From Tetraselmis striata (lineage: Eukaryota > Chlorophyta > Chlorodendrophyceae > Chlorodendrales > Chlorodendraceae): a stretch of DNA of 64,000 nt. How positions within the stretch are numbered: the first letter of the stretch is position 1; each line of letters begins with the position of its first letter. This document shows, one piece after another, positions 6,725 to 46,042 of this stretch. The stretch spans positions 54,068 to 118,067 of the forward strand of contig VCJN01002082.1 of NCBI GenBank assembly GCA_006384855.1, read 5' to 3'. Below the pieces are notes generated by a model. It saw only the letters and a program-made list of their open reading frames with translations, was not told the origin of the DNA and did not search any database. A program made the translations under genes and the position numbers.

Positions 6725-6767
6725 CACTGTGAGATTCAGATGTGACATACAGGTGACGAAGCACTAC

Positions 6768-6828
6768 TGCCGTCGCATGCTCGCATTCCCGCGTGGGGCG
6801 CTGTCACCAGCTCAATGGGCGGCCCATC
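6768..6828 (+). repeat. Left 61-bp terminal inverted repeat of the gypsy-type element
   Basis: Exact inverse of 13754-13814 by eye. It includes the first ATG (6815) of the first reading frame. Confidence 0.9.
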
Positions 6829-8479
6829 ACCATCGATGGAGATGGCGCAGCAGATGCACAGCCGTACAGAGCTGACGGCGAAGCTTACCAGCGCAGCTCA
6901 GAGCGTCACGGTGCCTGTGTCACTGGCCAACGGCGGTGGACAGCCGCGCATGCCACTGATGGAGATCGCCAAGCGGCTGGTCAAGCACGAGCCCGTGGAG
7001 GATGGCTGGGAGAAGCATGCTGTCATGCGTGCTCTGGAGAGCAAGCGAGTCTCCATCAGCCTGATGGAGGCTTACCAGCTCGAGCGCAGCGGCGGCGGGA
7101 TGATGGAGAGCGTCATGGCAACAGCATGGGGCGGCGGTGCCCTGAGTACCGAGCCGATCAGCAGCCACGCTCACTTAGCCAGGACCTCGAGCGGGGAGCG
7201 CGCCTTCGAGGCAGCGCTGATGATGGTGGAGGAGGTCGCTGACCAACAAAGCGGCGGCAAGTCTACCGCGGAGGAGAAGACCGCTGGCGGAGAGGCTGAG
7301 ACTGAACGGTCTTTTGCCATTTACCGGCCAGGTCAACTCGCGAGACAACGCGAGGAGGAGGAAGATCGCAAGCGTGCAAATGCGCAGCGCAATGCCAGCA
7401 CGGCGGTTGAGGAGGCATCAGTATGTCGCCGCAGCGGCAAGTGGGAACCCGCCACTGACTATCGACGCAGTGCCACTGAGGCAGACATCAGGGAGCAAGC
7501 ACTACGGCTGCCCAAAGGGTCTGAGACCCGACGCTGCCTGGAGCAGCAGGCGGAAGTCGCCCACAAGGGCATTTTTGCCCTTCAGCCCACGGGGGCTGAG
7601 GCGAAGGAGCAGCCGGAGACGGCTCGGCTTGACACCATCACGTGCGAGTTGCACGCCAACAATACCCTGCTGCAGTGCGAGACCATTTCCGACGGCGGGA
7701 GCAGCCACACCCGCATGAACGCGTCAGCGATGGAACCAAGCGCGGCGGAGGCCGTGGTGAAGGGCGCTGGCGGGTGGGTGGACGTCGACATGGTGGTGGT
7801 GCTCGCCAATGGCAAGCGCTCATGCGAGCAACAACGACGATTGCGGGATGGCGTGGTCTTCACGCTTCGGGACCCCGTCACCTCAATAATGGCAGCTCAT
7901 CACGCACCGCGCGTGTACGAGAATGGAGGCGAGGCACCGGGCTTGCTGCTCGGTGGACCCACCATCACAGCCCTCGGGCTGCGACCGGACCCGGCGACCA
8001 GGATCTGCACTTTCCGCGCACCCAACCGACCGGCCGGCAGAGTGCCACTGCTCAGTCAAACGGCGTGGGAGCGGCGGGTACGCGAGCACCAACCTGTGGT
8101 GCGCGTGGAGAGAGCGAGCTACTGCCATGGGGTGGAGCTTGGCGATGATGAGATGGGGGAGGAGAGTGGGGGGGGCAGTGACGTGTCTCACAGCCACGCC
8201 GCCCACGAACCCTCACGGCGTGACGTGCAAGAGTCCAAGACCTGCGAGCCGGCAGACCTACCGCCTTTGCGGGAGGTGCAGAGCCTGCAGCGTCACGGGC
8301 TGGCGAGGCTGAGCACCCGCGAAGAGGGCATCAGCCTGTACGAGCCATGTGGCGGAGGCTACGTTGCCGTGTTGAATGCCATGCTGGCCAACGGTCAGAA
8401 GGTGGCCAGATACCGGCATTCGGACATCGACCCGGCAGCCCGCAAGGCCGCTGGGCAGCGTGTTCAAGGAGCTCAGTAG
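6815..8479 (+). CDS. Retroelement ORF1: gag-like, protease-like, start of C5-methyltransferase
   Basis: 554 codons. The first ATG lies in the terminal repeat; ATGs at 6836 and 6842 are alternatives. Residues 1-250 are polar, rich in E/R/A and gag-like, without a CCHC knuckle. Residues about 270-392 look like a retropepsin: ISDGGSSHTRMN could be the active-site loop (Asp present, the usual D-[ST]-G altered to DGG), and LLLGGPTITALGLRPD resembles the C-terminal ILG-like strand. Residues about 507-550 carry EPCGGGYVAVLNAML and SDIDPAARKAA, matching the SAM-binding motif I and following acidic strand of C5-cytosine methyltransferases. The frame stops at 8479 while the same domain continues in the next frame, so a fusion by +1 shift is likely. 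Confidence 0.75.
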   Translation: MGGPSPSMEMAQQMHSRTELTAKLTSAAQSVTVPVSLANGGGQPRMPLMEIAKRLVKHEPVEDGWEKHAVMRALESKRVSISLMEAYQLERSGGGMMESVMATAWGGGALSTEPISSHAHLARTSSGERAFEAALMMVEEVADQQSGGKSTAEEKTAGGEAETERSFAIYRPGQLARQREEEEDRKRANAQRNASTAVEEASVCRRSGKWEPATDYRRSATEADIREQALRLPKGSETRRCLEQQAEVAHKGIFALQPTGAEAKEQPETARLDTITCELHANNTLLQCETISDGGSSHTRMNASAMEPSAAEAVVKGAGGWVDVDMVVVLANGKRSCEQQRRLRDGVVFTLRDPVTSIMAAHHAPRVYENGGEAPGLLLGGPTITALGLRPDPATRICTFRAPNRPAGRVPLLSQTAWERRVREHQPVVRVERASYCHGVELGDDEMGEESGGGSDVSHSHAAHEPSRRDVQESKTCEPADLPPLREVQSLQRHGLARLSTREEGISLYEPCGGGYVAVLNAMLANGQKVARYRHSDIDPAARKAAGQRVQGAQ

Positions 8480-11400
8480 GAGATATCCGGATCTACTACC
8501 AGCTAGCGCGATCAAGGGGTGGGACTCGTTTCCACAGGACATCACGGCGATCACAGCGGAGGACGTGAGGCGCCTGCCATACATAGACATAGTGGGGTGT
8601 GGATGGCCTTGCCCAGGCATGAGCAGAGCCAATCGCAACGCGCTGGGATTGCGCGACCGGAGGTCACGTTTGCTCTTTCACGTGGCCGCGTTCATCGAGA
8701 AGCTCGAGGAGAAGCAGCCCACCGGCGTGGGGTGGCTGCTGGAGAACGTGGATACGAGCGGAGACGAGAGACTGTACATCAAAGAGTCTGAGAAATACAT
8801 CACGAAGATCATCGGGAGAGCGCTCGTGATTGATGAGGCGGGCTGTGGAGCGAATCATCACCGAGTGCGACGATTCTGGACGAACATGGGGGACGTGGAG
8901 AGACTGAAGTTGGCGTGGGAGAGGCGGGCGGACATGCAGCCACGACTGCTGCGAGAGGTGCTGCCACCGCACCTACGGCCGCATGTCAATCTGCCGACGC
9001 CACCCAACGGAGTTCGCGTCAACAAACCGGGGCAGCCACGCGCGTTGCCAACGATCTTGGCGCGATCGGACTCAGATGCCTACTCCGGCGAGGGGGCCGG
9101 CATGTTGTTCAACATCAACACGGGCGAGTGGGAACGGCCCACTGTCCACCTGAAGGAGGAGCTTTTCGGTTACGAGCCGAACGTAATTCACGGCATATCG
9201 CTGCCGGACCATGAGCGCCTCATAGGCAATGCCATGGGTCTGCACAGCGTAGCGTGGATCGTCGGGCAGCTCTTCGTGGAGCAGCAGCGACTGAGGGACT
9301 TGGAGGAGCTGGAGCGCGCAGCTCGGGCTGCCCAGGCAGCTCAGCGCGCGGAACGAGAGAGACGAGAGCAACGCAGGATGCAGAGATCCTGCGGGAGAGC
9401 ATGGCAGCAGCTGTGTCAACAGGCGCTATGCTGCTGGCTGCTGCTCATTTGGTTGGGCGGCACGTCAATGCACTTCGGCGAGGCGAGTCGTCTCGGCAAC
9501 ACCACGGTGTTAGCCATGTTCGTGGCAGTGATGGTGCGCGCGAGCGCGCGCTACCGCCGCGAGGTGACGGCGACAAGCAGGGCGGGGCGCCGAGCTTTCG
9601 GCGCCAACGCCGTGTCGGACGGCGGCGGGACTGCGGAACGGAGTAGCGCTGCTGCGTGGGCCAATCGTGGCTACACGCAGGCAAGTATGAATGATCACGT
9701 GGAGGATGTTCGCAGCCTGAAGGATCCTGAGAAACACTGGCGGTGCGGGCGCGAGTGCGAGGCTTCACAGCAACAACAGCTAGTGGAGCTCTGCGACAGC
9801 TTTTGGGATGACGTGTGGGTGTGGTCCGTCAGCGACCTACCGGCCGTCAACCACTGGGAGTTCAGGATACCGACGACCAACACGCAGCCCATCAAGCGAC
9901 CCAAGTACCGATTGAGCAAGACTGAGTGGGACTTCGTGGACAGCTGGTGCAAGGAGCTGTTGGCAGCTGGGGCGATTCGCGAGAGCCAATCTCCCTACAG
10001 CATCCCAGTAGTGTGTCCACCGAAGAAGGACGACGACGGCAACTGGACCGGGATCCGGGTGTGTTTGGACGCTCGCCCGTTGAACAGTGTCACTGAGTCG
10101 TGGGCGTATTGTATGCCCAAGACAGACGAGCTACTCAGCAAGGTCGCAGGCGCGCGCATGTACAGCGGGTTTGACGCCAAGTCGGCGTTTCATCAGCTGC
10201 CCATCGCAGAGGAGGACCGACACAAGACTGCCTTTTGGGGCAGCGACCGGCAGTATGAGTGGTGCCGGATGGCGATGGGCTTCAAGAACGCCAGCCAAGC
10301 ATGGCAGCGTGTCATGGATGAGGCCCTTGGCGATCTGCCGTTCGTGGCGGTTTACGCCGATGACATCTGTGTCTTTTCAGGCGCAGCCGAGATGAGCGAC
10401 GCTGAGGTGTTTCAGCAGCACCTTCAGCATTTGGAGACGGTGTTTCAGAGGCTCGCAACGGCGGGCATCAGACTGGCGCCCGGCAAGGGGCGCATGGCCG
10501 TGAGGCAGATTGCTTTCTTGGGCCATTGGGTCGACGGCGAAGGCGTATTCCCGCAGCACTCCAAGGTGGAGGCTGTGGTGAAGATGCCGCCGCCGACTGA
10601 CGTTGCGGGGCTTCGGCGCTTCCTCGGCATGGTGGGCTACTACGGTAAGTTCATCGAGCAAGTTGCAGTCAAGCGCAAGCCGCTGACCAAGCTCACTGGC
10701 AAGGTGCCGTGGGAGTGGGGATCGGAGCAGCAACGAGCCTTCGAGCAGCTCAAGGCAGACCTGGTTTCAGCTCCCGTGCTGAGAAATCCGGATTGGAGCC
10801 GCCCTTTCATCCTGCACACCGATTTCAGCGGAGCTGGATTGGGCGCGGTGTTGGCGCAGGAGGACGACGAAGGACAGGAGTACGTGGTGGAGTTTGCGAG
10901 CCGCACCTGCCAAGGCGCGGAGCCCAACTATGCCAGCTATGAGGGTGAGTGTCTTGCCATGTTGTATGGCATGGACAAGTTCAGATACTATCTGTTTGGC
11001 AGGCAGTTTGTGGTGGTGACAGATCATCGGCCTTTGGAATGGCTGATGAACACCGCTCAGCTTCGTGGGAAGTTGGCGCGGTGGGCGATGAGGCTCAGCG
11101 AGTACGACTTCGTGGTACGCTATCGGAAGGGCGTTCACCACGTCAACGCAGATTGTCTGAGTCGGGGGCCCGTGGAGGGCGACCCAACGGAGCTGGATGG
11201 GCGCGGTGAGTTTTCACCGGAGGGCACCGTGCGACATGCGGCAGCCTTTTGGTGCGCAACGGCTCAGAGCAGCCGGCAGCCGGAGCTGTCAGCATGGGCG
11301 CGACGCCGCGTGCTGGACACCGCCCATGAGGGCACGGCCAACGGCGACTTGGTGGCGGTTACCGGCGAGCTGACGGCGGGACCGCGGAGAGGCGATCCGT

Positions 11401-13691
11401 GGATGGACGCGGAGGCGATGGCGGAGCTGCAGGCGGGCAACGTCAACATGCCGCAACCTTATGCCCGCTATACATGGAGAAACAACATCTTGTGGTATTT
11501 ACACAAGGACGGCACGCACCGCGAGGTACCGCCACCCAGTGAGCGAGACACGGTGATTATGGATGTGCATGTCAAGATGGGCCATTTGGGGCGGGATCGG
11601 CTGCGCAGTGTTATCGCCGCTTCATATTTCTGGCCAGGGATGGTGGAGGATGTAGCCCGAGTCAAGAAGGCGTGTCCGGACTGCGATCGGCTGCAACATC
11701 GACCCGGCGGCACCAGCGGCCGCCCAAAGGCAGCCTCACCGCTGGACATGCAGCCGCTGCCGCACTTCGGCATGTTCTACCGCTGGCACTTGGACTTGGC
11801 GGGGCCTTTTGAGGCCACCCGCAGTCGCAATGTCTGGGTGTTGGTGATGGTGGAAGCGGCGAGCAAGTGGGTGGAGTTGGTGCCGCTGCGCACCAAGGAG
11901 GCAGCCAACATACGACAAGCCTTTCAAGAGAGAGTACTGGCGCGTTTCGCGGCGCCAGGCGAGGTGTGTACCGACGGCGGTACCGAGTTCAGCGGCGAGT
12001 TCCACGAGCTTCTCGTGGAGCATGACATCGATCATCCGAAGCCGCTGCCCTATCATCCGCAGCCCAATGGGTTGGCGGAAGGGATGGTGAAAACAGTCAA
12101 GGAGGCACTGATGCGCTATGTGGTTCAGCCCGGCAAGCGCGTCGTGTGGGACACTTTTCTGCCTTCCATCGAGCTGGGCTACCGTTGCAGCAAGCAAGCC
12201 AGCACCAGGTACAGCCCATACGAGTTGGTGTACGGCAGGGCACCCGTGTTTCCCGCGCAGGCGAGAGCGCTCTTTGAGGAGAGCGCCGTGGACTTCAACA
12301 GCCCGGAGGGCATGTGGGAGCTGATGACAGTGCGCGCGGAGCGTTTGGCGCTCATGGTGCCGACGGCGATGCACAACGTGGAAGCGGCGCAGCATCGTGA
12401 AGTGATGCGCTATCGCAGGAGGCGCGCGGGGTTGGTGGCGCCCGGAGTGCAACGCTTCAGCCCCGGCGACTTCGTCTACGTGCAACAGCGGCAGCAAGAC
12501 GCGCTCGATCCACGAGTGCGACCGGCTGTCTACAAGGTTTACGAGGTGAACGACAACGGAGTGGTGGTCATCCAAGGAGCTGACGGCGACACGGCGCGCG
12601 TGCGCGTTGAGGAGCTGGCGCGGTGCGCCGTTCCATACGTGGTGTTGCCGGCAGGATTTGAAGACCCAAATATGGCGTGCGAGGAGTGCGACGGGCGCGT
12701 CAGCACCCAGCGCAACCCGATCATCATCTGCGAAGACTGTGAACGAGGCTGGCACAAGTTGTGTCATCAGCCACCTGTGGCACGTGTGCCGCGGGGGGCA
12801 TGGCGGTGTGCGGAGTGCAGCGCTGATGACGCAGCGTTACCGGCACAGTGGACATCGGTGGCTTTAGCCGCCACAACAATCAGTGACAACGACGACAGCG
12901 ACGAGGAGATTCAAGACCCTGCCCCGCCTTTGCAGCCGACAAGAGCGGCAGTGGCAGCAAGACTGAACTGGGGCATGCCTGGCGCCTGGCACCCAGCAAC
13001 TGTGACAAGAACGATGAACAACCTTCAAGCAGCCAATGACTATCTACCGGCAATCAGTAACCAAGTGAGCGAGTACGCTGCGCTAGCCAACGTGATCAGC
13101 TGGCGCGGCCGAGTAATCTTTGATCCGTGGGCGGGACATGGCAGCACCGCTGAGGCCTTGCGGCCGTGCGGTGCGACAGTGATCAACAACGACTTCAATC
13201 CGGTGTACCAAACTGAGATGTGCGAGGACGCGCTGGAATCCTTTGTGTACCAGTGCGCTCGCGATGTAACCGCAACTGTGGCGATGACGACGATGATGAC
13301 GACGACGATGACGACAACGATGATGACAACACAGCCGCGGTTAGAGGCCCCTTTCATAGTGGTGACCTCCCCGTGGTTCCAACTACTTGATCTGGCGCTG
13401 CCAATCATGGCGTCATGCGCGGACATCCTTTTCGTGCAAGTACCAATCTTCTACATCGCGCAGGGACCTTCCCCGCGCATGCAGTGGCTACGGCATCTAG
13501 GCGACTGTGGGCGGCTCCACATTATTGCCGGCGACATGCAGCGTAACCGCACTACGCGCCGATCAACCCTGTGGCTCGCGGTCTTCCGCGACAACGAGCT
13601 GCGAGAGCGAGAACTGCGAGCTGAGTGGCGTCACTCCGTGGCGTCAATTCACTTCCACACCGAGGCGTGCGCTGGCGACCAGCATCACTGA
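8376..13691 (+). CDS. Retroelement ORF2: C5-MTase, RT, RNase H, integrase, PHD finger, second MTase-like domain
   Basis: 1,771 codons counted from 8376; homologous reading seems to begin near 8463 (FKELSRRYPDLLP) after a frameshift from ORF1. Order: C5-MTase motif IV VGCGWPCPGMSR (catalytic Cys79), motif VI ENV (123-125), motif VIII RVRRFW (163-168), motif X GNAMG (about 283); Ty3/gypsy reverse transcriptase about 490-690 with YADD at 660-663; RNase H about 813-885 (HTDFSGAG, VTDHRPLEW); HHCC integrase finger about 1063-1101; D,D,E core (WHLDLAG, CTDGGTEF, NGLAEGMV) about 1136-1235; C4HC3 PHD finger about 1434-1484; and a C-terminal SAM-MTase-like domain with FDPWAGHG (1582-1589) and TSPWF (1664-1668), the latter resembling the (D/N/S)PP(Y/F/W) box of amino-methyltransferases. 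A Met/Thr repeat precedes it. Every catalytic residue looked for is present. Confidence 0.88.
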   Translation: MPCWPTVRRWPDTGIRTSTRQPARPLGSVFKELSRRYPDLLPASAIKGWDSFPQDITAITAEDVRRLPYIDIVGCGWPCPGMSRANRNALGLRDRRSRLLFHVAAFIEKLEEKQPTGVGWLLENVDTSGDERLYIKESEKYITKIIGRALVIDEAGCGANHHRVRRFWTNMGDVERLKLAWERRADMQPRLLREVLPPHLRPHVNLPTPPNGVRVNKPGQPRALPTILARSDSDAYSGEGAGMLFNINTGEWERPTVHLKEELFGYEPNVIHGISLPDHERLIGNAMGLHSVAWIVGQLFVEQQRLRDLEELERAARAAQAAQRAERERREQRRMQRSCGRAWQQLCQQALCCWLLLIWLGGTSMHFGEASRLGNTTVLAMFVAVMVRASARYRREVTATSRAGRRAFGANAVSDGGGTAERSSAAAWANRGYTQASMNDHVEDVRSLKDPEKHWRCGRECEASQQQQLVELCDSFWDDVWVWSVSDLPAVNHWEFRIPTTNTQPIKRPKYRLSKTEWDFVDSWCKELLAAGAIRESQSPYSIPVVCPPKKDDDGNWTGIRVCLDARPLNSVTESWAYCMPKTDELLSKVAGARMYSGFDAKSAFHQLPIAEEDRHKTAFWGSDRQYEWCRMAMGFKNASQAWQRVMDEALGDLPFVAVYADDICVFSGAAEMSDAEVFQQHLQHLETVFQRLATAGIRLAPGKGRMAVRQIAFLGHWVDGEGVFPQHSKVEAVVKMPPPTDVAGLRRFLGMVGYYGKFIEQVAVKRKPLTKLTGKVPWEWGSEQQRAFEQLKADLVSAPVLRNPDWSRPFILHTDFSGAGLGAVLAQEDDEGQEYVVEFASRTCQGAEPNYASYEGECLAMLYGMDKFRYYLFGRQFVVVTDHRPLEWLMNTAQLRGKLARWAMRLSEYDFVVRYRKGVHHVNADCLSRGPVEGDPTELDGRGEFSPEGTVRHAAAFWCATAQSSRQPELSAWARRRVLDTAHEGTANGDLVAVTGELTAGPRRGDPWMDAEAMAELQAGNVNMPQPYARYTWRNNILWYLHKDGTHREVPPPSERDTVIMDVHVKMGHLGRDRLRSVIAASYFWPGMVEDVARVKKACPDCDRLQHRPGGTSGRPKAASPLDMQPLPHFGMFYRWHLDLAGPFEATRSRNVWVLVMVEAASKWVELVPLRTKEAANIRQAFQERVLARFAAPGEVCTDGGTEFSGEFHELLVEHDIDHPKPLPYHPQPNGLAEGMVKTVKEALMRYVVQPGKRVVWDTFLPSIELGYRCSKQASTRYSPYELVYGRAPVFPAQARALFEESAVDFNSPEGMWELMTVRAERLALMVPTAMHNVEAAQHREVMRYRRRRAGLVAPGVQRFSPGDFVYVQQRQQDALDPRVRPAVYKVYEVNDNGVVVIQGADGDTARVRVEELARCAVPYVVLPAGFEDPNMACEECDGRVSTQRNPIIICEDCERGWHKLCHQPPVARVPRGAWRCAECSADDAALPAQWTSVALAATTISDNDDSDEEIQDPAPPLQPTRAAVAARLNWGMPGAWHPATVTRTMNNLQAANDYLPAISNQVSEYAALANVISWRGRVIFDPWAGHGSTAEALRPCGATVINNDFNPVYQTEMCEDALESFVYQCARDVTATVAMTTMMTTTMTTTMMTTQPRLEAPFIVVTSPWFQLLDLALPIMASCADILFVQVPIFYIAQGPSPRMQWLRHLGDCGRLHIIAGDMQRNRTTRRSTLWLAVFRDNELRERELRAEWRHSVASIHFHTEACAGDQHH

Positions 13692-13741
13692 GCGTCGATT
13701 GGCGCCCAGCGGCCGTTCACCCTTCTGGCGACCAACCGTCT

Positions 13742-13753
13742 GGGGGGGGGGGG
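13742..13753 (+). promoter_or_regulatory. Polypurine-tract-like G run
   Basis: A run of 12 or more G directly abuts the right terminal repeat, where a plus-strand primer tract would lie in an LTR retroelement. Similar G runs are common in the window, so the role is inferred from position only. Confidence 0.35.
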
Positions 13754-13814
13754 GATGGGCCGCCCATTGAGCTGGTGACAGCGCCCCACGCGGGAATGCG
13801 AGCATGCGACGGCA
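13754..13814 (-). repeat. Right 61-bp terminal inverted repeat of the gypsy-type element
   Basis: Inverse of 6768-6828. Followed by GC, then the foldback element. Confidence 0.9.
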
Positions 13815-13816
13815 GC

Positions 13817-15301
13817 TGCCGCAGCATCCGTCATATCCGCGTGCGCGTGAAGAACGGGACAGCCAAGCCCTTCCGGGCCGGCTAGGATTAAAGCTAGGGT
13901 TCCATACCCGGTTGAGACCACAGGCAGGGCACCTGATTGGTTAGGGTTCCATACCCTGGCCATAGCCCTGAGCGAGGCGCAAGGAGACATACATACCGGA
14001 GATCAGAGACCCGCCCAAGCACACCTAGGCGGGACTTCTAAGGGAACTCAGATAGCACCTCAAATCGGGACCTCTAACAGGGACCCCTAAGGTGGACTAC
14101 CTGCAGAAGACGAAGTACTGTACTGCTGCTGGTACAAGGCGCAAGACTCACTGTAGCCGCAGCCGAGTAGTAGTATAGGACTTGATGAGTACAATTAGAC
14201 AAGGGCAGTGCGTAATGCGTCTGGCGCGCGGTGCGCGCACGGCGCGCGTGCTATTAGCACTTAGCGTGACGTGCGGCTGCCTTGCCATGGCCGCGATCGC
14301 GTGCTTATAGAGGGCCTCCGCCTTCTAGCGGTCCCTCTTCCCCCTTGTCTTGCCTGTGTGTGCCTGTGTTTGCCTATGACAGGCATAGGCAAGAGCCTGT
14401 GTACGGGACGGAGACGGTGTAAGAGACGGAGATCGGCTTGAGGAACGAGGGCCAAAGGTAATCACGGTAGCCTACGTGCTTGTCGTACGGTCGCACGCGT
14501 GCTGCCCGCTGCATCGTGCGCGCGCGCTGCTGGTGGTGCTGGGTTGTCACCATTCGACCCGGTACCGACGTAAAGTACTGTAGGAACGGTTGATAGCCGC
14601 GACCAGCACTGCATAAAGTACTGCACGGCGTGGCAGTGACCTGTGGTGAGAGGCTTCATTGCCACTGGCATTCACCCCCCTGAGTACGGGCAAGACCAGC
14701 AACGCTGGTCTGAACTAAAGCCCTATAGGCGTCTGAGAGGTGCCTGTAGTGACTTAGGTTCGCGTTCAGACAAGGGGGAAGAGGGACCGCTAGAAGGCGG
14801 AGGCCCTCTATAAGCACGCGATCGCGGCCATGGCAAGGCAGCCGCACGTCACGCTAAGTGCTAATAGCACGCGCGCCGTGCGCGCACCGCGCGCCAGACG
14901 CATTACGCACTGCCCTTGTCTAATTGTACTCATCAAGTCCTATACTACTACTCGGCTGCGGCTACAGTGAGTCTTGCGCCTTGTACCAGCAGCAGTACAG
15001 TACTTCGTCTTCTGCAGGTAGTCCACCTTAGGGGTCCCTGTTAGAGGTCCCGATTTGAGGTGCTATCTGAGTTCCCTTAGAAGTCCCGCCTAGGTGTGCT
15101 TGGGCGGGTCTCTGATCTCCGGTATGTATGTCTCCTTGCGCCTCGCTCAGGGCTATGGCCAGGGTATGGAACCCTAACCAATCAGGTGCCCTGCCTGTGG
15201 TCTCAACCGGGTATGGAACCCTAGCTTTAATCCTAGCCGGCCCGGAAGGGCTTGGCTGTCCCGTTCTTCACGCGCACGCGGATATGACGGATGCTGCGGC
15301 A
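13817..15301. mobile_element. Foldback element with 534-bp inverted arms
   Basis: Arms 13817-14350 and 14768-15301 are inverses, with no mismatch in the stretches compared by eye. The loop is 14351-14767. Ends are TGCC...GGCA, like the neighbouring retroelement. No frame in it resembles a known protein. The loop contains a smaller repeat (TGTGTGCCTGTGTTTGCC). Identity of the arms implies recent formation or gene conversion. Confidence 0.9.
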
Positions 15302-15979
15302 CTACTACTAGCGACTATTATTTATCCGTGAAGGCTGCTGGTGGTGGCGGCACGTCCATCCAGTTACGTGCGAGTACATCCGGCGTTATTGCCGGCGGGC
15401 GATAAATCCTTTTTGTCATCATTCTGGTAGTCGTACCAGCCCGGTGAAGCGTACATGGCACTGACGTACAAGGTACAAGGTTGTCCGTGTAGTACCGGGT
15501 AGTACGCGATATATTTATTACGCCGGTACCGGGTATCTAGTACCCCGGTACCCGGTACCCGGGCACGATGGAGAGTGGTCCTGTGGATAACTACGACTAT
15601 TAGTACATGGGAGCGCAAATCTCAGCCGTACTATTCGGCCAAAGTGGGGAATTTTGTGTACATTATAGCTAGTACTGCTGAACGGGCCTGCCAGCCGTCC
15701 GATCAAAGGTCATCAGATGGGCGGTTTGGCTGCCATGTTTTGCCAAAGAGTGCTCACGTTACATAAATATTCGCGAGGGGGGAGGCGGGGGCAGGCAGCG
15801 GTTTGCCGAAGAATGATTGAATTACAATATTCGCGACAGCTGCCATCGGGGGATGTGGCCCGGCGGGGGGAGTGGGGGGGCGGGCGGGCGTGGTCCCCCC
15901 GCCGCCCCCGCGCCCCCCCCCCCCCCCCCCCCGCCGCTCCCGCCGGGGGAGTGAGGGGAGGGGGGTAAGGGGGCGGGGG

Positions 15980-16255
15980 CTACTGCTTGTTCTTGTTCTT
16001 GCGTGCCCGGGGGACCCTCCGCTTCGACGATCTCGCTGCCTCCGCCTCCGCCTCCGCCTCCGCCTCCGCCTGCGCCTGCGCCTCCGACTCCGCGACCGTC
16101 AGTTTCTTACCTCGGCGTTTCTTCACTGGCCTCTTCCGCTTCTTGTCATCCCTCAGTGTCTTCACCACCCCGGGAGGCTGTGCCGTCGACGACGCCGCCA
16201 TGAGCTTCCTTACCTTCGCGTCGGGACGCCCCCTGTGCCCAGACACCCACAACAA
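15980..16255 (-). CDS. Basic, Lys/Arg- and Ala/Glu-rich protein of the CACTA-like element (copy A)
   Basis: 91 codons ending KNKNKQ. The middle has KKRKRPVKKRRGKKL, a strong nuclear-localisation-like cluster, followed by an AE dipeptide repeat (GCCTCC on the plus strand) and a second basic cluster. Copy B keeps the frame (51563-51832, +) with a shorter AE repeat, so the frame is maintained despite length change. It may be the last exon of the 16274-16702 gene. Function unknown; nuclear or DNA-binding is inference from charge. Confidence 0.5.
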   Translation of the reverse strand: MLWVSGHRGRPDAKVRKLMAASSTAQPPGVVKTLRDDKKRKRPVKKRRGKKLTVAESEAQAQAEAEAEAEAEAARSSKRRVPRARKNKNKQ

Positions 16256-16273
16256 GCCACAATCGTTTCGCCT

Positions 16274-16702
16274 TTAAGCGGCTGAGGATGCGGCCTCCTC
16301 GGCCACCACGAGTTGCGCCGCTGGCACTGTGGAAGCCTTGGCGTTGAGGTGGGCCTTACGGCGCTCCCGGACGAACCTGCGCGCGGCACAAGTTAGCCAC
16401 GAGTGGGTGCGTGCTAATGTGGAGGATGGAGTGTTTTGTTGCGCGCCCACCTTGTCACGCGTTTCCTCATGTCTTTCTCGTCCTCCTCGATGCCGGCGGC
16501 GCGGACACGCGAGACAACAAGGCTCGCCGCCCACTTTTGCCCGGGGGGGCGAGGTCGGCCATGGCGCTGTGAGCGGTGAAGGGGGGGGGGGGGGGGGGGC
16601 GGCCGAGGTGGAGAAACTAACACCCAGTCGACGACCGCCTTCCGCAGCAGTCAACGACACATCGGAGGCGAGGAGCAGCGCGCCACTACTATTTATATGC
16701 AC
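16274..16702 (-). CDS. Element-encoded protein of unknown function (copy A, frame intact)
   Basis: 142 codons: Pro-rich tract (from a C run), a CCLACPRRRHRGG cysteine/basic patch, then SWLTCAARRFVRERRKAHLNAKAS to the stop. In copy B one extra T in the corresponding sequence (about 51462) stops the frame after FVRERR, so copy A is the better copy here. No domain recognised. Confidence 0.45.
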   Translation of the reverse strand: MHINSSGALLLASDVSLTAAEGGRRLGVSFSTSAAPPPPPPSPLTAPWPTSPPRAKVGGEPCCLACPRRRHRGGRERHEETRDKVGAQQNTPSSTLARTHSWLTCAARRFVRERRKAHLNAKASTVPAAQLVVAEEAASSAA

Positions 16703-16972
16703 GTATTGTCAAGAGCTAGTCGGTGCGGCATTGTGTCAGTGTAATTTCGCAATGTTTATTGTTGAAGTAGCACGGCGTAATGGATACGGCGAGTGAATCC
16801 GGGATAATGTGTGCGACGAATGTGCGCGCGCATCGTTGTGCGGCGGTGTGCGGCGGTGTGCGGCGGTGTGCACCGATGTTAATATAGTGTGAATATTATA
16901 TCGGCCGTAGACGATCAGGTCTGGCAGCACCGCCCGTGCTTGTAAATAAGCGACAACGGATCTAGTCTCCCG

Positions 16973-17760
16973 CTAGTCTGTGCACCGCCAGTGCACTCCG
17001 CAAGCCTCGCCTCCATCCGCGTCGGAACCGGTAGTAAGTGTTGTTGTGTGCGCACATCGTGACAACATATTACACGGTGGCAATTGCAATTATTAGCGGT
17101 GGATAATGTGAAGGCGTTTTCGAAATCGACAGAGAATGAGGCGGTGCTGGCGGAGTGCATTGGCGGTGCATAGAATAGCGTGTTGCTGGGGTTTTGGCTG
17201 CATCGGACGCCGTATTCCCACCCATCCGGCACGGAATGTCCGGTTTTTACACATTTGTGTGTTAATAAAGTGTGAATATTACGCGTCTTTTACGGTGGAT
17301 GGGCATCCGGCGTCCGATGCACCCCAATTATTTGCAGCACGCTACTCTACGCACCCCCAACGCACTCCGCAAGCCTCGCCTCCATCCGCGTCGGAACCGG
17401 TAGTAAGTGTTGTTGTGTGCGCACATCGTGACAACATATTACACGGTGGCAATTGCAATTAGCGGTGGATAATGCGAAGGCGTTTTCGAAATCGACAGAG
17501 AATGAGGCGGTGCTGGCGGAGTGCATTGGCGGTGCATAGAATAGCGTGTCCCTGGGGTTTTGGCTGCATCGGACGCCGTATTCCCACCCATCCGGCACGG
17601 AATGTCCGGTTTTCACACATTTGCGTGTGAATATATATAGTGTGAATATTACGTAGGCGTCTTTTACGCTGGGTGGATGGGCATCCGGCGTCCGATGCAC
17701 CCCGAATCTCACCAACACGCTACTCTACGCACCCCCAACGCACTCCGCCAGCCCCGCCTC
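16973..17760. repeat. About 370-bp tandem repeat, roughly two units (copy A)
   Basis: Recurring blocks such as CGGAATGTCCGGTTTT at about 17231 and 17598. Each unit contains a pair of about 75-bp inverted segments (GCGGAGTGC...GCATCGGACGCC), so a unit can form a hairpin. Copy B has three units. Confidence 0.85.
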
Positions 17761-18564
17761 TTTCCGCGCAGGTCCTACGTTCCATTGTATGTATATACAT
17801 ACGTACATGTACTGCTCCGAAACCAGCCCAAACTTAATGAGTGCACAAGTGTAAATGGGGGGGGGGGGGGGGGTGGGTGGGGGGGGGGTGTGTGGCGGCG
17901 GGGCATCCACTCACACATACCCCGGCGATGCATGACAGATATTACATGCCGTGGCGGGTCGGCGGGCCGACCCGGCGGGGGGGGGGGGGGGGGGGGGGGG
18001 GGGCGTCTATTCAACTACACGTGCGACAGTGTCGTTTCGTGGAGCAGTATATGTGCCCGGCCTCATTTATACCGCCCCCTACCTGCGCTGCATGGTCCAC
18101 CCCTACGAATTACTTAGCACAAACCGCCATTACTTAATAGGAACCTAGCACAGCCAGGCTTATATGCCCGCTTTGCCGATCAACTTCTACGCACTTTCCG
18201 TCCCTTAACCGCCGGACATGGGGGTTAAGCCGCCAGCCTCGGCAGTTGCTTAGCCAGACTTGGCATCCCGTACCGTGTCCATGGCTTCGCAGCTCTGCCG
18301 CCGGCACACGCCAAGTCCGGCGCTTGCTGCCGCGGGGTTGCGCACGCATGCACGCACGGTAATACGCCGCCGACGCCGCCACGCTTATTTCCACCACCTT
18401 CGCCTGCCGCAGCTTCGCACGCCTTTCCGCCGACATACGAAACGCACGAATCCCCCCCCCCCCCCCCCGTCCCCGCGTCATGTATATTATATTCGAGGCG
18501 ACTATGCGGGGCGCAGCACACGCCGCGGCTTGGGTCGGCGGAGCGGCAGGCGGCGGGAGCCCTA

Positions 18565-19371
18565 ATGGCCGGGCAGTATCCACACCCACACAGGCACCGC
18601 CGCTCACCTCCGACGCGGATGAACCGCCTCCCAAAGGAAACATGCCGGTTGGTGGTAATCCCAGCAGGCGTGGGGTGCCGGCGCCGGTACTGGTGCGACG
18701 GAGCTGTCGCGTCAGGAACCGCACCGCATGTGGAGCAACACATGGCGGTGCCGGCCCCACCTATGTCTAGGGCCACCTCCTCACAACACCCCGCCACGAC
18801 GGCGTCGGCCACCGCCGACGGCGCCGTTGCGGGGGGGGACGCCCTGCCAGGCGACGATGATGCGCCTGGTGCGCCGCGTCAGGAGGCGGAGGAGGCCGTG
18901 GTCGAGGCGACTGATCGGGCTGAGGGGGTTGTCGAGGCGAGCGAGGCTGCGCTCGCGCCACCCGCCCCGCAGCCACCTGCGGGACATGCCGACTTGCTCG
19001 TCGCCATGTTGACCGGAGCACTACGAGCAGTGGCGGGAGGCGGCCACATGCACTATCATGTGCGTGTCCTGGCCGGACGCCCGTCATGCGTGGACTGCGG
19101 CCAACGGACGGACTGGGAGTGTTGCTGCGACGGCACCCCGGCTTTGTGCGGCCCCAAGTACCCATGCATGGCGACCCATCAGCGGGCAGTCCTCTGCCCG
19201 ACCACGGCCACGGTGAGGGCGGAGTTCCGCCATGTCAGGGACGCGTTCCACGACGCGACTCGCGCCGCCGTGTGTGAGGCTTCCGAGAAGGCACGCGCGG
19301 CTGGTAGGGTGCGCAGGGTGAGGCGGCGGACGGCCCAGGAGCTGAAGGAGAGCGAGACATGCCGTCAGTGA
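18565..19371 (+). CDS. Cysteine-rich protein of the CACTA-like element (copy A)
   Basis: 268 codons. The N-terminal half is low complexity (A, P, E rich). The C-terminal half has HMHYHVRVLAGRPSCVDCGQ, WECCCDG, and CGPKYPCMATHQ, a dense Cys/His set that could bind zinc, then a basic tail ending CRQ. Copy B has the same protein on the opposite strand (48060-48950, 296 codons) with a longer N-terminus; in copy A one extra base near 18562 shifts that extension out of frame. Cysteine clusters accompany several large algal and fungal transposase families, but no transposase core is visible. Confidence 0.55.
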   Translation: MAGQYPHPHRHRRSPPTRMNRLPKETCRLVVIPAGVGCRRRYWCDGAVASGTAPHVEQHMAVPAPPMSRATSSQHPATTASATADGAVAGGDALPGDDDAPGAPRQEAEEAVVEATDRAEGVVEASEAALAPPAPQPPAGHADLLVAMLTGALRAVAGGGHMHYHVRVLAGRPSCVDCGQRTDWECCCDGTPALCGPKYPCMATHQRAVLCPTTATVRAEFRHVRDAFHDATRAAVCEASEKARAAGRVRRVRRRTAQELKESETCRQ

Positions 19372-20100
19372 GGTCGGGCGCAATGTCATTGGGTGGGGCA
19401 CACGGACGTGTAACACTTGCACTTTGCGCGTACTGCTGGGTTACATCCAAGCGGTGTCACACTATGCAACCGGAAAGGCTGCGTTGCTACTGCAAACGAT
19501 GCTACGCCTCACTCGGTAGCAACCGCTGCCCCGTCTATCCCACAGCCGCTGCCCCCCCCCCCCCCCCCCCCCCCCCCCGCGCGCGGGATCCCCGCCATCA
19601 GCAGCTTGCACTTGCACTTTGCGCGTACTGCTGGGTTACATCCAGGCGGCGTCACACCGGAAAGGCTGCGTTGCTACTGCAAACGATGCTACGCCTCACG
19701 CGGTAGCAACCGCTGCCCCGCCCATCCCACTCGGGATGCTGAGAGCAGCTAAAGGGCACCGGGGGCGGGGCAAGAGGGAGCAGGGCCAATGATTGTGGAA
19801 GAGCGGGGACCCGCTTGCATGCCATCGTATTATATCTTGCACAATATCTGTTGCTGCACTCATATCTCACGTCACTAGCTTAGCTATAGTGATTCCCCCC
19901 CCCCCCCCCCCCCCCCCCCCGCACCGCGTACGCACAAGCCTGGGTATACGCATCAACTGCCCGCCGGGATGAGAAACTGGTATTGGTAGTGTGTCTGTGG
20001 GGTGGAGGGGGGGCAAAAGAGCTGCCAATTGCTGCCAAGCTGGTGCGTTACATTGGGGCAGGCGCTGGGCAGACAATTGGGGCTCGCTTCAGAGCATTGT

Positions 20101-21375
20101 CTAGTGCCTATGCGGCTGCGCCGCCTCCGCCGCATGCAGACTCTCCGGGCTCACCAGCACCGCCACCTCAGTCATGCGGCCCTGCATCCCGCAGCCCGCC
20201 GCCGCCAGCCAGATCAGAGGTATCCAGAAGCCAGTGCTGGGGTTGTTGCGGCATGACCGCATAGTTTTCAGCGGCTGCCGTCCACAACTTGTAATGCATC
20301 CCTTTCCGCCGATTCCGCTGTATGCGCTGTCTTGGCGCCGCGCTGCCCCGGCCGCCGCGCGTTGGCGCCGCGCTGCCCCGGCCGCCGCGCCTTGGCGCCG
20401 CGCTGCCCCGGCCGCCGCGCCTTGGCGCCGCGCTGCCCCGGCCGCCGCGCGTTGGCGCCGCGCTGCCCCGGCCGCCGCGCGTTGGCGCCGCGCTGCCCCG
20501 GCCGCCGCGCCTTGGCGCCGCGCTGCCCCGGCCGCCGCGCGTTGGCGCCGCGCTGCCCCGGCCGCCGCGCCTTGGCGCCGCGCTGCCCCGGCCGCCGCGC
20601 CTTGGCGCCGCGCTGCCCCGGCCGCCGCGCGTTGGCGCCGCGCTGCCCCGGCCGCCGCGCCTTGGCGCCGCGCTGCCCCGGCCGCCGCGCCTTGGCGCCG
20701 CGCTGCCCCGGCCGCCGCGCCTTGGCGCCGCGCTGGGTATCGAGTCCTCCCCTCCCTAGTGAGCGCGTCCACCTGCGCCTTGCGCTCGGGGCCGTCCTCC
20801 TCCGTCACCACATTCTGCAACCCCCACCGCGTGACGAACCACGCAGCTCCTTGCATGCGCTTGTACATGTGCCCAAGCACCGCCAGTCGTGACACCGAAC
20901 GCACCACCGCTGGGGACGCGAGCTCCTTCTCGGGCATGATCGCCTTCACCCGGGCCTCCTCGAGGAGCGGACCGGCGTTAAGAATGGAAAACGTTTCCAT
21001 GTGGTGCAAGCAGTCCTCCATGACCCAGCCGGGCTGCACCGTCACCTTGCCTGACCCTGCAGTCATGGAGGGGAATGCCGTCACGCCCACGCCCACGCCC
21101 ACGCCCGGGGGGGGGGGGGGGGGGGAGGGGTTTACCTTTCGATTCTTGGACACTGCAAACGAAGGGCGCAACCCGCGTTCAAAGTTGCTGGGTATCGGGA
21201 CTAAAGCCTGGCGCCGGTCTTCCTGCTTCATAGCTCGGAATCCAATGTGGCCCTGCACGGTGACAAATTTCCTCCAGAAGTCCCTTCCCAAGCCAAAAAA
21301 AAACAGGTGGAACGGCGCGAGGGGGAAGAGGTTGACCATGCTGACATAGCCCCGGACCACATGCACATGGCACAC
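20101..21375 (-). CDS. Minisatellite-containing protein of the CACTA-like element (copy A)
   Basis: 424 codons, possibly an exon. The N-terminal part (about 170 residues) is non-repetitive: GRDFWRKFVTVQGHIGFRAM, VQPGWVMEDCLHHMETFSIL, FVTRWGLQNVVTEEDG. Then comes an array of about 13 decapeptides RRQ(G/R)AAAGAA encoded by a 30-bp minisatellite, and a unique C-terminus ending QPHRH. In copy B a deletion near 46030-46045 (after EKEL) shifts the frame, so the continuous reading survives only here. No known domain seen. Confidence 0.5.
   Translation of the reverse strand: MCHVHVVRGYVSMVNLFPLAPFHLFFFGLGRDFWRKFVTVQGHIGFRAMKQEDRRQALVPIPSNFERGLRPSFAVSKNRKVNPSPPPPPPGVGVGVGVTAFPSMTAGSGKVTVQPGWVMEDCLHHMETFSILNAGPLLEEARVKAIMPEKELASPAVVRSVSRLAVLGHMYKRMQGAAWFVTRWGLQNVVTEEDGPERKAQVDALTREGRTRYPARRQGAAAGAARRQGAAAGAARRQGAAAGAARRQRAAAGAARRQGAAAGAARRQGAAAGAARRQRAAAGAARRQGAAAGAARRQRAAAGAARRQRAAAGAARRQGAAAGAARRQGAAAGAARRQRAAAGAARRQDSAYSGIGGKGCITSCGRQPLKTMRSCRNNPSTGFWIPLIWLAAAGCGMQGRMTEVAVLVSPESLHAAEAAQPHRH
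20331..20736. repeat. 30-bp GC minisatellite, about 13 units (copy A)
   Basis: Unit GCGCCGCGCTGCCCCGGCCG plus 10 more bases, repeated at exact 30-bp intervals with a G/C alternation (CGCGTTGG or CGCCTTGG) at one position. Unit length is a multiple of three, so several frames stay open. Confidence 0.95.
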
Positions 21376-21636
21376 GCCATGGCAGCCAGTGTTCTGCTTG
21401 GCCTCCGCCAGCCGGGTTGTGTTGACCGCACGCCGGGCAAGGTGCGTGATTCACTGGACAAGTCATCGCCTTCATGGACGGTTACCAAGCGAGCCTCCCC
21501 GTCCGCATCCACAGGGGGGTGCTCCTGGGCAGCCGTCATAGCCTCCACAACCTGCCACGCCGACCGGGCGGGTGCGTGTGATTCCATACAACCGCAGTTG
21601 AGTGGTGCCACCAGCACGCAGGCCGGGCCCACTCAC

Positions 21637-21822
21637 CTCTGAACGCAGAAGGCCCACAATGCCCCCGTCCTCGAAAACAGCGCGCCACTGGGTCGCCCCG
21701 CCGTAGTCCTCCAACACCCACTCGGTAACGACGCCGGTTATCACGCCGTAGTGCCATACTCCCCGGAACTTCTTGGCGATGACCTTCATGTAGAAGTCAC
21801 CGGGATCGCCTTTCCATATCAC
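21637..21822 (-). CDS. Tudor-like domain exon of the CACTA-like element (copy A)
   Basis: Exon reading DFYMKVIAKKFRGVWHYGVI, then WRAVFEDGGIVGLLRSE, ending at a GTGAGT donor (21636 downwards). The pattern K-x-F-x-G-x-W-x-x-G-x-V ... WRVxFEDGxxxxL resembles small Tudor-like barrels (PTM/DIR17-type) found in plant chromatin proteins. Copy B has the same exon at about 45124-45309 (+). Chromatin reading by the element protein is inference. Confidence 0.5.
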
Positions 21823-21826
21823 GCCC

Positions 21827-22228
21827 TCATCCGTTTCCGACGGCTGCAGCTACTCCTGCTGCCGCCCCTGTTGTTGTTGCTGCTGCTGCTGCCGCCCCTG
21901 CTGCTGCTGCTTGTGATAAGGCGGCCTTGCGGCGCAACTTAGCCGCACGCTTCAACGAGTGGCTACAGTTCGGGAAATTTAGGAAGTGCCGCTCTCGCGC
22001 CATCTTATCACATGTGCCCGTCACGTTGCCCCGGCAGTGCTTGCATGAGTACACGCCATCCTTCGACACACTCGCTATCCATCCCTTTATTTTGCCGGCA
22101 TGCCTGCTGCCGCGCGCAGGGGGCGGGGGGGGGGGGGGGGGGGGGGGGGGTTGAGAGTTGGGGTGGATGTAACCCACCACCGGCAGGCAACACAGATGCG
22201 AGTGCGCGGCTGTCCGCGCTTGATTCAA
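21827..22228 (-). CDS. Zinc-finger-like exon of the CACTA-like element (copy A)
   Basis: Frame with GWIASVSKDGVYSCKHCRGN, then HFLNFPNCSHSLKRAAKLRR and an Ala-rich tail. The CxxC...H...C spacing after an aromatic start is reminiscent of BED-type fingers of transposases, but His/Cys order is not canonical. In copy A a short insertion just after the ATG used in copy B (reads ATG CCG GCA AAA TAA) destroys that start, and about 145 bp present in copy B is missing after it. Confidence 0.45.
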   Translation of the reverse strand: MNQARTAAHSHLCCLPVVGYIHPNSQPPPPPPPPPPPARGSRHAGKIKGWIASVSKDGVYSCKHCRGNVTGTCDKMARERHFLNFPNCSHSLKRAAKLRRKAALSQAAAAGAAAAAATTTGAAAGVAAAVGNG

Positions 22229-22716
22229 CGGTGAGCGGCGGTGACCGTGAGGCGACCCCGTACTTCATGCGCGTGCTGGGGCGTTACACAATCATCAGCA
22301 GTTAGGGCGGCTGCATTAAAACGCGCACCTACGAACACCACCTACCGCCTACCACCTACCGTACCACCTACATCCGCCCACACCTCCGCCCGTCGTGCCG
22401 CACATCGCCGCACACCGCGGGGTCAGCGGTCAGCGATGTGCGGTCAGCGATGTGCGGCGATGTGCAATGAGTGCGTACATCCGCCTGTACATAGCCCGGG
22501 TGCTCCGCGTCGGCGGGCGACACGCGAGCCCGCGTGCGCATATCAATTTGATGAAATTATGGAAACGAGAAATTCATATAGTACTTTACAGGTCGCGCGC
22601 GATAGTCGTCGCTACTGGGTATGAAATCCACGTCCCTCGTCCGTCCCGTATCGTCCCCGTATGTCGTCGTTCGTCACCAGTAGGGCACATTTACGTCACA
22701 TCTGAATCTCACAGTG

Positions 22717-44103: not shown

Positions 44104-44716
44104 CACTGTGAGATTCAGATGTGACGTAAATGTGCCCTACTGGTGACGAACGACGACATACGGGGACGATACGGGACGGACGAGGGACGTGGATTTCATA
44201 CCCAGTAGCGACGACTATCGCGCGCGACCTGTAAAGTACTATATGAATTTCTCGTTTCCATAATTTCATCAAATTGATATGCGCACGCGGGCTCGCGTGT
44301 CGCCCGCCGACGCGGAGCACCCGGGCTAAGTACAGGCGGATGTACGCACTCATTGCACATCGCCGCACATCGCTGACCGCACATCGCTGACCGCTGACCC
44401 CGCGGTGTGCCGCGATGTGCGGCACGACGGGCGGAGGTGTGGGCGGATGTAGGTGGTACGGTAGGTGGTAGGCGGTAGGTGGTGTTCGTAGGTGCGCGTT
44501 TTAATGCAGCCGCCCTAACTGCTGATGATTGTGTAACGCCCCAGCACGCGCATGAAGTATGGGGTCGCCTCACGGTCACCGCCGCTCACCGTTGAATCAA
44601 GCGCGGACAGCCGCGCACTCGCATCTGTGTTGCCTGCCGGTGGTGGGTTACATCCACCCCAACTCTCAACCCCCCCCCCCCCCCCCCCCCCCCGCCCCCC
44701 GCGCGCGGCAGCAGGC

Positions 44717-45127
44717 ATGCCGGCAAAGGGATGGATAGCGAGTGTGTCGAAGGATGGCGTGTACTCATGCAAGCACTGCCGGGGCAACGTGACGGGCACT
44801 TGTGATAAGATGGCGCGAGAGCGGCACTTCCTAAAATTCCCGAACTGTAGCCACTCGTTGAAGCGTGCGGCTAAGTTGCGCCGCAAGGCCGCCTTATCAC
44901 AAGCAGCAGCAGCAGGGGCGGCAGCAGCAGCAGCAACAACAACAGGGGCGGCAGCAGGAGTAGCTGCAGCCGTCGGAAACGGCCCGCCGGCGCCGGTCTC
45001 GGACGACGGCGGCTCGAAGGTGGACGATGTGATGGGCGTGGGGGAGGACCCCGTTGGCGAAGACGGTATGGACATCGACGCGCCTGCGTGGCCGCCGGCG
45101 GGCGTGGAACCCGCGATGAGGGCGTGA
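44717..45127 (+). CDS. Zinc-finger-like exon of the CACTA-like element (copy B)
   Basis: The ATG at 44717 gives MPAKGWIASVSKDGVYSCKH, with CxxC then HFLKFPNCSHSLKRAAKLRR, an Ala-rich stretch and an acidic part (VGEDPVGEDGMDIDAP). The frame is open to 45127 but probably splices into the Tudor-like exon, which lies in another frame. Similar to BED-like fingers, not canonical. Confidence 0.5.
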   Translation: MPAKGWIASVSKDGVYSCKHCRGNVTGTCDKMARERHFLKFPNCSHSLKRAAKLRRKAALSQAAAAGAAAAAATTTGAAAGVAAAVGNGPPAPVSDDGGSKVDDVMGVGEDPVGEDGMDIDAPAWPPAGVEPAMRA

Positions 45128-45309
45128 TATGGAAAGGCGATTCCGGCGACTTCTACATGAAGGTCATCGCCAAGAAGTTCCGGGGGGTATGGCACTACGG
45201 CGTGATAACCGGCGTCGTTACCGAGTGGGTGTTGGAGGACTACGGCGGGGCGACCCAGTGGCGCGCTGTTTTCGAGGACGGGGGCATTGTGGGCCTTCTG
45301 CGTTCAGAG
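45124..45309 (+). CDS. Tudor-like domain exon of the CACTA-like element (copy B)
   Basis: Same domain as 21637-21822: FYMKVIAKKFRGVWHYGVI and QWRAVFEDGGIVGLLRSE, ending at a GTGAGT donor at 45310. One residue differs early (GDSGD for GDPGD), and the rest is conserved. This suggests a recent common source. Confidence 0.5.
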
Positions 45310-46042
45310 GTGAGTGGGCCCGGCCTGCGTGCTGGTGGCACCACTCAACTGCGGTTGTATGGAATCACACGCACCCGCCCGGTCGGCGTGGCAGGTTGTG
45401 GAGGCTATGGCGGCTGCCCAGGAGCACCCCCCTGTGGATGCGGACGGGGAGGCTCGCTTGGTAACCGTCCATGAAGGCGATGACTTGTCCAGTGAATCAC
45501 GCACCTTGCCCGGCGTGCGGTCAACACAACCCGGCTGGCGGAGGCCAAGCAGAACACTGGCTGCCATGGCGTGTGCCATGTGCATGTGGTCCGGGGCTAT
45601 GTCAGCATGGTCAACCTCTTCCCCCTCGCGCCGTTCCACCTGTTTTTTTTGGCTTGGGAAGGGACTTCTGGAGGAAATTTGTCACCGTGCAGGGCCACAT
45701 TGGATTCCGAGCTATGAAGCAGGAAGACCGGCGCCAGGCTTTAGTCCCGATACCCAGCAACTTTGAACGCGGGTTGCGCCCTTCGTTTGCAGTGTCCAAG
45801 AATCGAAAGGTAAACCCCTCCCCCCCCCCCCCCCCCCCCCCGGGCGTGGGCGTGGGCGTGGGCGTGACGGCATTCCCCTCCATGACTGCAGGGTCAGGCA
45901 AGGTGACGGTGCAGCCCGGCTGGGTCATGGAGGACTGCTTGCACCACATGGAAACGTTTTCCATTCTTAACGCCGGTCCGCTCCTCGAGGAGGCCCGGGT
46001 GAAGGCGATCATGACCGAGAAGGAGCTTCGCGTCCCCAGGCG

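Follow-up and report, generated by a model that had tools for sequence, protein, structure and literature searches.

A rearranged Gypsy retrotransposon copy of Tetraselmis striata with a frame-split DNMT3-like methyltransferase, a PHD finger and a Dam-like domain

Gypsy retroelements that carry a DNA methyltransferase (MTase) include KnitGypsy-Dnmt3 of Klebsormidium nitens, described by de Mendoza et al. (2018) as a Gypsy Pol accompanied by a Dnmt3-type DNA methyltransferase (DNMT), with repeats in an A-coding-B-A-B arrangement and with the DNMT under purifying selection (PMC5890265). The same paper recalls Dam-like MTases in DIRS elements, and its passages on adenine MTases mention them for DIRS elements only; the MTase type is given as Dam-like in DIRS and Dnmt3 in SymbioDIRS (PMC4157794, PMC5890265). 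Tf1 and Tj1 are described as self-primed long terminal repeat (LTR) elements, in which the primer-binding site (PBS) is complementary to the 5' end of the RNA (PMC4600332), and foamy-virus integrase is reported to cut the palindrome at the LTR-LTR junction on both strands, each time after CA, so that a 2-nt 5' overhang is left (PMC1180852). Here we analyze a 64,000-nt stretch of Tetraselmis striata DNA (“the window”; contig VCJN01002082.1 of assembly GCA_006384855.1, positions 54,068 to 118,067 of the forward strand), which holds a retroelement touching on each of these systems.

A sequence-only reading of the window had proposed a Gypsy-type element at 6768-13814 with two different MTase-like domains and a PHD finger in one polyprotein. 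The combination of two MTase-type domains, which are unrelated, with a PHD finger is supported by our analysis and recurs in relatives, and the open reading frames (ORFs) and motifs lie where that reading had placed them. Its sequence marks the window copy as a member of a Ty3/Gypsy retrotransposon family of a Tetraselmis-like green alga, truncated at the 5' end and rearranged. The element is of the Gypsy-Dnmt3 kind known since 2018 (PMC5890265), with added parts. Its coding features are the following.

6815-8479 (+): remnant of ORF1 (the 3' part of the Gag-MTase frame), with a start codon inside an inverted short repeat (SR)
8327-8476 (+): motif I/II part of the C5-MTase in the ORF1 frame, matched by BLAST to where the DNMT domain begins in 20 relatives
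8376-13691 (+): ORF2, 1771 aa, with the C5-MTase remainder, reverse transcriptase (RT), RNase H, integrase, PHD finger and Dam-like domain (ORF list, Pfam)
8463-9275 (+): DNMT3-like C5-MTase, motifs IV to X (PC, ENV, RVRR, GNAM), by PF00145, PDB and relatives
10020-10529 (+): RT (PF00078, 8e-23)
10716-11105 (+): RNase H (PF17917/PF17919)
11529-12035 (+): integrase, H2C2 zinc domain and DDE core (PF17921, PF00665)
12678-12818 (+): PHD finger (PF00628, 4.2e-6)
12996-13610 (+): Dam-like domain (N6-adenine MTase family) with motif IV SPWF, by profile comparison

ORF2 has the Ty3/Gypsy order of RT, RNase H and DDE integrase. The RT, RNase H, integrase and PHD finger recognized earlier all pass Pfam cut-offs (RVT_1, RNase H, H2C2, rve and PHD); the PHD finger scores 27.1 bits on PF00628 against a curated cut-off of 24, and its best solved chains are DPF3 and ATXR5. 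The Pfam matches of the window proteins include rve and no tyrosine-recombinase family. Close matches of the window protein are Tetraselmis striata gene models, at 97-100% where aligned. One scan of viral contigs gave no match. Searching the 224-Mb assembly (2903 contigs) with ORF2 gave at least 29 loci, corresponding to at least 27 elements (two are in two pieces), of which at least 11 loci are uninterrupted by a stop over the full 1771 aa; these counts are lower bounds, from the best 27 of 3112 candidates.

The C5-MTase is, from its motifs and matches, DNMT3-like and split between ORF1 and ORF2, whose frames are one base apart, by a +1 frame change. The ORF2 fragment matches PF00145 at 1.8e-4 and 21.5 bits, just under the cut-off of 22, and all 29 of its PDB matches at E up to 0.1 are DNMT3A/B/C chains. 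When the two frames were searched apart, not joined, against 42 proteins (19 of them short ones found via the C-terminal domain), the last 84 residues of ORF1 matched the start of the DNMT in 20 and residues 1-330 of ORF2 matched its remainder in 22; the two matches abut in P0013, P0023 and P0025. The suspected C5-MTase across ORF1 and ORF2 thus corresponds to adjoining segments of one uninterrupted C5-MTase in relatives. In the usual naming of C5-MTase motifs, I, IV (PC), VI (ENV), VIII and X are all present, spread over the two frames. The DNMT of P0025 has DNMT3A as its best PDB match and HhaI among lower ones, and the P0010 DNMT segment has no PDB match at 1e-3. The +1 relation is identical in all 25 loci with an anchor (24 elements; the other 4 of the 29 have no exact anchor), 24 of these share the same ORF1 stop, and the frames overlap near codon GTT at 8462.

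The C-terminal domain, in which an MTase had been suspected from FDPWAGHG...TSPWF, falls in MTase families by profile comparison. Our alignment A1 holds 23 members of this domain (P0014 was left out of the 24 available), of which 10 match D12 MTases (best 0.0024) and 13 match the DNA MTase PHROG 799 (best 5.7e-5), the latter covering motif I to motif IV in those listed. A tblastn search of phages with the P0010 domain returned 10 records (E 0.04 to 0.4), of which three have a gene named DNA methyltransferase under the match and six a hypothetical gene, while one is unannotated. Compared with a ten-protein alignment of the phage family, the A1 profile gives an hhalign probability of 96.8% (E 2e-10, 81 columns), or 97.2% in a rerun with other settings, and 22 controls (20 column-shuffled, 2 reversed) give at most 0.12%. 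Pfam Dam is matched below cut-off by two of three phage proteins scanned, and a PDB sequence search with the C-terminal domain gives weak, mixed matches. Catalytic N6-adenine MTases typically carry the pattern [DNS]PP[YFW]. The motif IV of the window family does not fit it, although profile homology to Dam-like MTases is found; as SPWF stands in place of NPPY, catalysis is uncertain, and we regard the domain as a Dam-like MTase-family member in that qualified sense.

Several further occurrences of this domain were seen. An alignment-based search for it, bearing on a possible host or stand-alone origin, found 19 proteins (best 8000 candidates); they are 110-371 aa long, have no Pfam domains and include Tetstr1 models. 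At G000:C1620 (L076, 4680-5369), a second family has the Dam-like domain in an ORF of its own, of 229 aa, with no other part of the window element's Pol in the surrounding 12 kb; matches resembling it, in open frames of ~232 aa, are many in the genome. At G000:C2237 (9733-30484), six copies of the domain form a tandem array with ~4.01-kb spacing. In the Tetstr1 gene models P0003, P0006 and P0047, most of the PHD finger and motif I of the C-terminal domain are spliced out, so annotation can hide the domain.

Because all 22 relatives compared (P0009 and 21 more) were found via the C-terminal domain, the sample is conditioned on it; 21 of them also have a C5-MTase and 18 the PHD pattern. The C5-MTase lies between RNase H and integrase in all 16 that show it together with RT or RNase H; five others are fragments starting at the C5-MTase, and P0030 is without it. 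Only the Tetraselmis element and P0001, among those compared, have the C5-MTase before RT.

Both MTase parts show purifying selection. Over 15 of the 16 Tetraselmis copies tried (all but L002, which could not be placed), the ratio of nonsynonymous to synonymous polymorphism (pN/pS) is 0.29 for the C5-MTase part, the C-terminal domain and RT-RNase H alike and 0.16 for the integrase, with a significant excess of silent changes in all four. C-to-T changes, each site being counted once however many copies share it and copy relatedness being otherwise uncorrected, affect 37/1022 CG, 37/736 CHG and 27/1511 CHH sites, so that CG and CHG changes are commoner than CHH (p 0.004 and 3e-5, respectively). 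From this excess the copies have probably been methylated, which the host could have done.

The extent of the insertion differs from the earlier proposal. Its ends, the target site and the repeats are as follows.

6764-6767: target-site duplication CTAC, left copy (empty-site comparison)
6768-6827 (-): inverted SR at the truncated 5' end, which it caps; identical to the reverse complement of 13755-13814
13742-13754 (+): polypurine tract (PPT), G13, directly 5' of the SR
13755-13814 (+): SR, 60 nt (repeat comparison)
13815-13816 (+): GC spacer in the CA-GC-TG junction, proposed integrase cleavage site (locus comparison)
13817-14767 (+): long repeat (LR), 951 nt (U3 remainder, R, U5), a direct repeat at both ends of two read-through copies
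14306-14309 (+): putative TATA, 29 nt upstream of the predicted start of the RNA; the LR contains two further TATA words
14335-14350 (+): predicted 16-nt RNA 5' end and self-primer (LR 519-534), reverse complement of the PBS
14768-14783 (+): PBS copy AGACAAGGGGGAAGAG, which directly follows the 5' LR in L050 and L051
14784-15301 (-): inverted LR (518 to 1), fold-back product in place of the normal LR/SR end, exact reverse complement of LR 1-518
15302-15305: target-site duplication CTAC, right copy (empty-site comparison)
52517-52524 (-): empty target site in a paralogous inverted duplicate (window self-comparison)

Positions 6768-13814 are not one whole element: a 60-nt SR lies at one end and its exact reverse complement at the other. 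Set against the empty site of the paralogous duplicate, 6768-15301 is a single insertion with the CTAC duplication on both sides. The duplicate is an inverted copy of the right flank (15299-22716 versus 44104-52524, mostly at 96-98% identity), with the element beside one arm only; one arm also contains a tandem repeat array with a 30-bp register at 46188-47110 (self-BLAST). Between 4000 and 17000 there are three inverted repeat pairs, two of which (65 bp and 534 bp) lie at the element's ends, and no direct repeats of at least 40 nt, for which reason we rejected plain LTRs for the window copy. A terminal-inverted-repeat Gypsy or Ginger-like element was also rejected, as other copies have no such 65-bp inverted ends, and so were two separate adjacent insertions meeting at 13815-13816, where no duplication occurs and SR-GC-LR is the normal internal junction.

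In all 20 left sides fetched from other copies, homology begins at position 57-63 of the 6768-13814 element. The whole 2.0-kb left piece, ~1.65 kb of it upstream of that start point, is common to 18 of the 20 (the reference L030 counted); L043 has a break and L047 shares 491 nt only. The upstream sequence of L030 reads in frame into ORF1 and contains CCHC knuckles (zf-CCHC), which identifies these ~1.65 kb as Gag. Since other copies extend this far or farther upstream and have a different 3' end, the window copy is without most of Gag and rearranged. Full copies follow the plan LR-coding-SR-LR-SR instead of the Ty3/Gypsy plan of two plain LTRs around a coding region, and two, C1713 and C1240, could be read through. 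In both, one LR of 951-971 nt stands at the 5' end and a second lies near the 3' end, the latter with a 60-nt SR on either side; the terminal SR of C1240 is shortened. One LR pair is identical over 951 nt and the other has 2 mismatches and 10 gap columns, so both insertions are young. The LR has at least 43 matches in the genome (best 40 of 269 candidates), and the element ends, TGCCGC...GACGGCA, are of the TG...CA type.

The junctions bear on how copies are inserted. The 4-bp target duplication is exact in all 11 copies with both ends read, namely L018 and 10 of 10 with the right end in hand (of 13 with the left end read, the other 3 being without a right end). The internal SR/LR junction is CA-GC-TG in all 24 loci having an LR after the SR (23 elements; L026 and L029 overlap), whereas 18 terminal LR/SR junctions (from 17 loci and L065) show 16 distinct forms, among which are deletions, fillers and a T-run. 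In 17 of the 18 scars the LR extends to GTTC, where it borders the PBS (in L011 it is cut at LR 615). The SR is intact from ATGGG onward in 11 scars, four of which include part of the G-run. Constancy at the one junction and variability at the other make CA-GC-TG look like the place where the integrase cuts, and the LR/SR joint, whose edges are mostly the ends expected from reverse transcription, looks like repaired cDNA ends. Taken together, the junctions suggest end-joined cDNA re-cut by the integrase at the internal palindrome, which would be unusual for an element of this kind. The right end of L020 has a scar filler of tens of nucleotides and L065 has the T-run; both could show what end joining captures.

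At the priming site, AGACAAGGGGGAAGAG, directly after the LR, is the reverse complement of LR 519-534 over 16 nt (maximum 11 nt among 2000 random 60-mers of the element); this and the 29-nt TATA spacing fit a self-primer layout of the Tf1/Tj1 type, complementary to the predicted RNA 5' end. LR 534 is the exact end of the inverted arm in two fold-back copies, that of the window and that at C1151, with the strand switch at those 16 nt, as expected if the end re-annealed within its own strand. In the copy at G000:C1151 (L064), the loop is oriented opposite to that of the window.

We propose that the RNA starts inside the LR (at predicted LR 519) and that reverse transcription is self-primed as in Tf1, the 16 nt at the RNA 5' end pairing with the PBS that adjoins the LR. 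Plus-strand synthesis would be primed by the G-run before the SR, giving a linear cDNA SR-LR-coding-SR-LR, the ends of which would be joined by repair into the LR/SR scar; the integrase would then cut the palindrome-like CA-GC-TG at the internal SR/LR junction and insert there. With less certainty, the two MTases may mark new cDNA or copies, and the PHD finger may steer integration to particular histone states. This explanation as a whole (a rearranged Ty3/Gypsy copy with two MTase-type domains and a PHD finger, self-primed, passing through end-joined cDNA, and possibly marking and steering) is in our judgment rather probable. A bolder claim is that a DDE-integrase element inserts mainly from end-joined (circular or concatenated) cDNA via its own internal att palindrome, with a writer of 5-methylcytosine, a writer of the N6-methyladenine type and a histone reader in one polyprotein marking or protecting that intermediate; we hold it tentatively, at a little under an even chance.

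Several observations speak against this account of the ends. The SR is shortened in 7 of the 18 scars, a third inverted LR pair, found at C639, departs from the 16-nt pattern, and L008 and L018 are LR-coding-SR without a scar, for which no end joining is needed; they fit the cutting of a one-repeat circle, or of linear cDNA at both SR/LR sites. Joining of one cDNA to another would agree with the data just as well as circle formation. The split-repeat ends could instead come from template switching during reverse transcription of read-through RNA, a single step that could add the terminal SR and would suit the scarless L008 and L018. However, the scar edges lie mostly at the PPT and the PBS boundary, where reverse transcription ends, and the fillers, deletions and T-run resemble end joining, so we consider template switching unlikely. 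The two-frame MTase might likewise reflect error or decay rather than a designed frame change, given that the window copy is rearranged and that L021 has lost the ORF1 stop. This we think very improbable in view of the frame relation and stop shared among the anchored loci, and of P0001, in which ORF2 begins after the same point as in the window element.

Other doubts concern what the domains do. The C-terminal domain of the window copy has no match alone in Pfam, PHROGs or NCBIfam, and scans of the domain against these databases also list weak non-MTase families. The domain may descend from a Dam-like MTase but no longer be catalytic, binding cDNA, RNA or the integrase: the third position of motif IV, the second proline of NPPY, is never proline (0/23), motif I with its glycine loop is degenerate in several relatives, and 9 of the 15 invariant columns of A1 come after motif IV. 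Set against this are the purifying selection on the domain, the invariant motif-II aspartate and the rest of motif IV, which keeps S in 22/23, P in 22/23 and F/Y in 23/23 members, and we give the non-catalytic reading a substantial but less than even probability. As to methylation, a CG plus CHG bias is the expected trace of plant-type host methylation. Ordinary host silencing could therefore have left the transitions, with the element's MTases acting elsewhere, e.g., on RNA or as cofactors, and the data do not separate the actors; the DNMT3-like part nonetheless keeps its motifs and has a pN/pS equal to that of RT, and to us this reading as a whole is nearly as probable as not. Marking and steering by the element itself are further weakened by an element without CpG depletion (observed/expected ~1.0) and a PHD finger for which selection is not significant in the same 15-copy set.

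The significance of the element is twofold. Whether an integrase can use joined cDNA ends is an old question, debated for retroviral 2-LTR circles, and here 18 genomic scars can be read. In addition, a mobile element naturally pairs a DNMT3-like with a Dam-like domain and a PHD finger, and relatives show the pairing too, which opens a way to test in an alga what self-methylation does to a retroelement.

Compared by description, the Tetraselmis element shares with KnitGypsy-Dnmt3 a Dnmt3-type DNMT in a Gypsy Pol, A-coding-B-A-B repeats and purifying selection on the DNMT; the first part of the Tetraselmis DNMT lies in the ORF1 frame. It also has a PHD finger, a word that does not occur in the main text of the KnitGypsy-Dnmt3 paper (PMC5890265), whose passages on these elements include no analysis of junctions. 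Split direct repeats and MTase domains are also common to PAT, Toc and Kangaroo of the DIRS group and to SymbioDIRS-Dnmt3, as described in PMC4157794 and PMC5890265; the DIRS group has a tyrosine recombinase and no integrase gene, in contrast to the DDE integrase and target duplications found here. The palindrome cleavage model, CA/NN/TG, is common to foamy virus (PMC1180852, as described there) and the Tetraselmis element, and the foamy-virus 2-nt 5' overhang matches the GC that is lost here, but the palindrome is at the LTR-LTR joint in foamy virus and within copies, with the joint elsewhere, in Tetraselmis. With an RNA 5' end at the predicted place, the PBS would be complementary to it, as in Tf1 and Tj1. 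To our knowledge, Tf1 and Tj1 have ordinary LTRs and neither MTases nor a PHD finger. Phage Dam-like MTases (e.g., of Staphylococcus phage S-CoN_Ph25 and Listeria phage LMSP-25) match at the profile level from the motif I region to motif IV, which is NPPY/F/L in the phage alignment (NPP invariant) and of the SPWF type in Tetraselmis. Among the titles and abstract beginnings listed in searches of the open-licence literature, none reports a Gypsy element with both MTases and a PHD finger. Within that scope, the MTase pair with a PHD finger, the frame-split MTase and the junction evidence for end-joined intermediates appear to be new.

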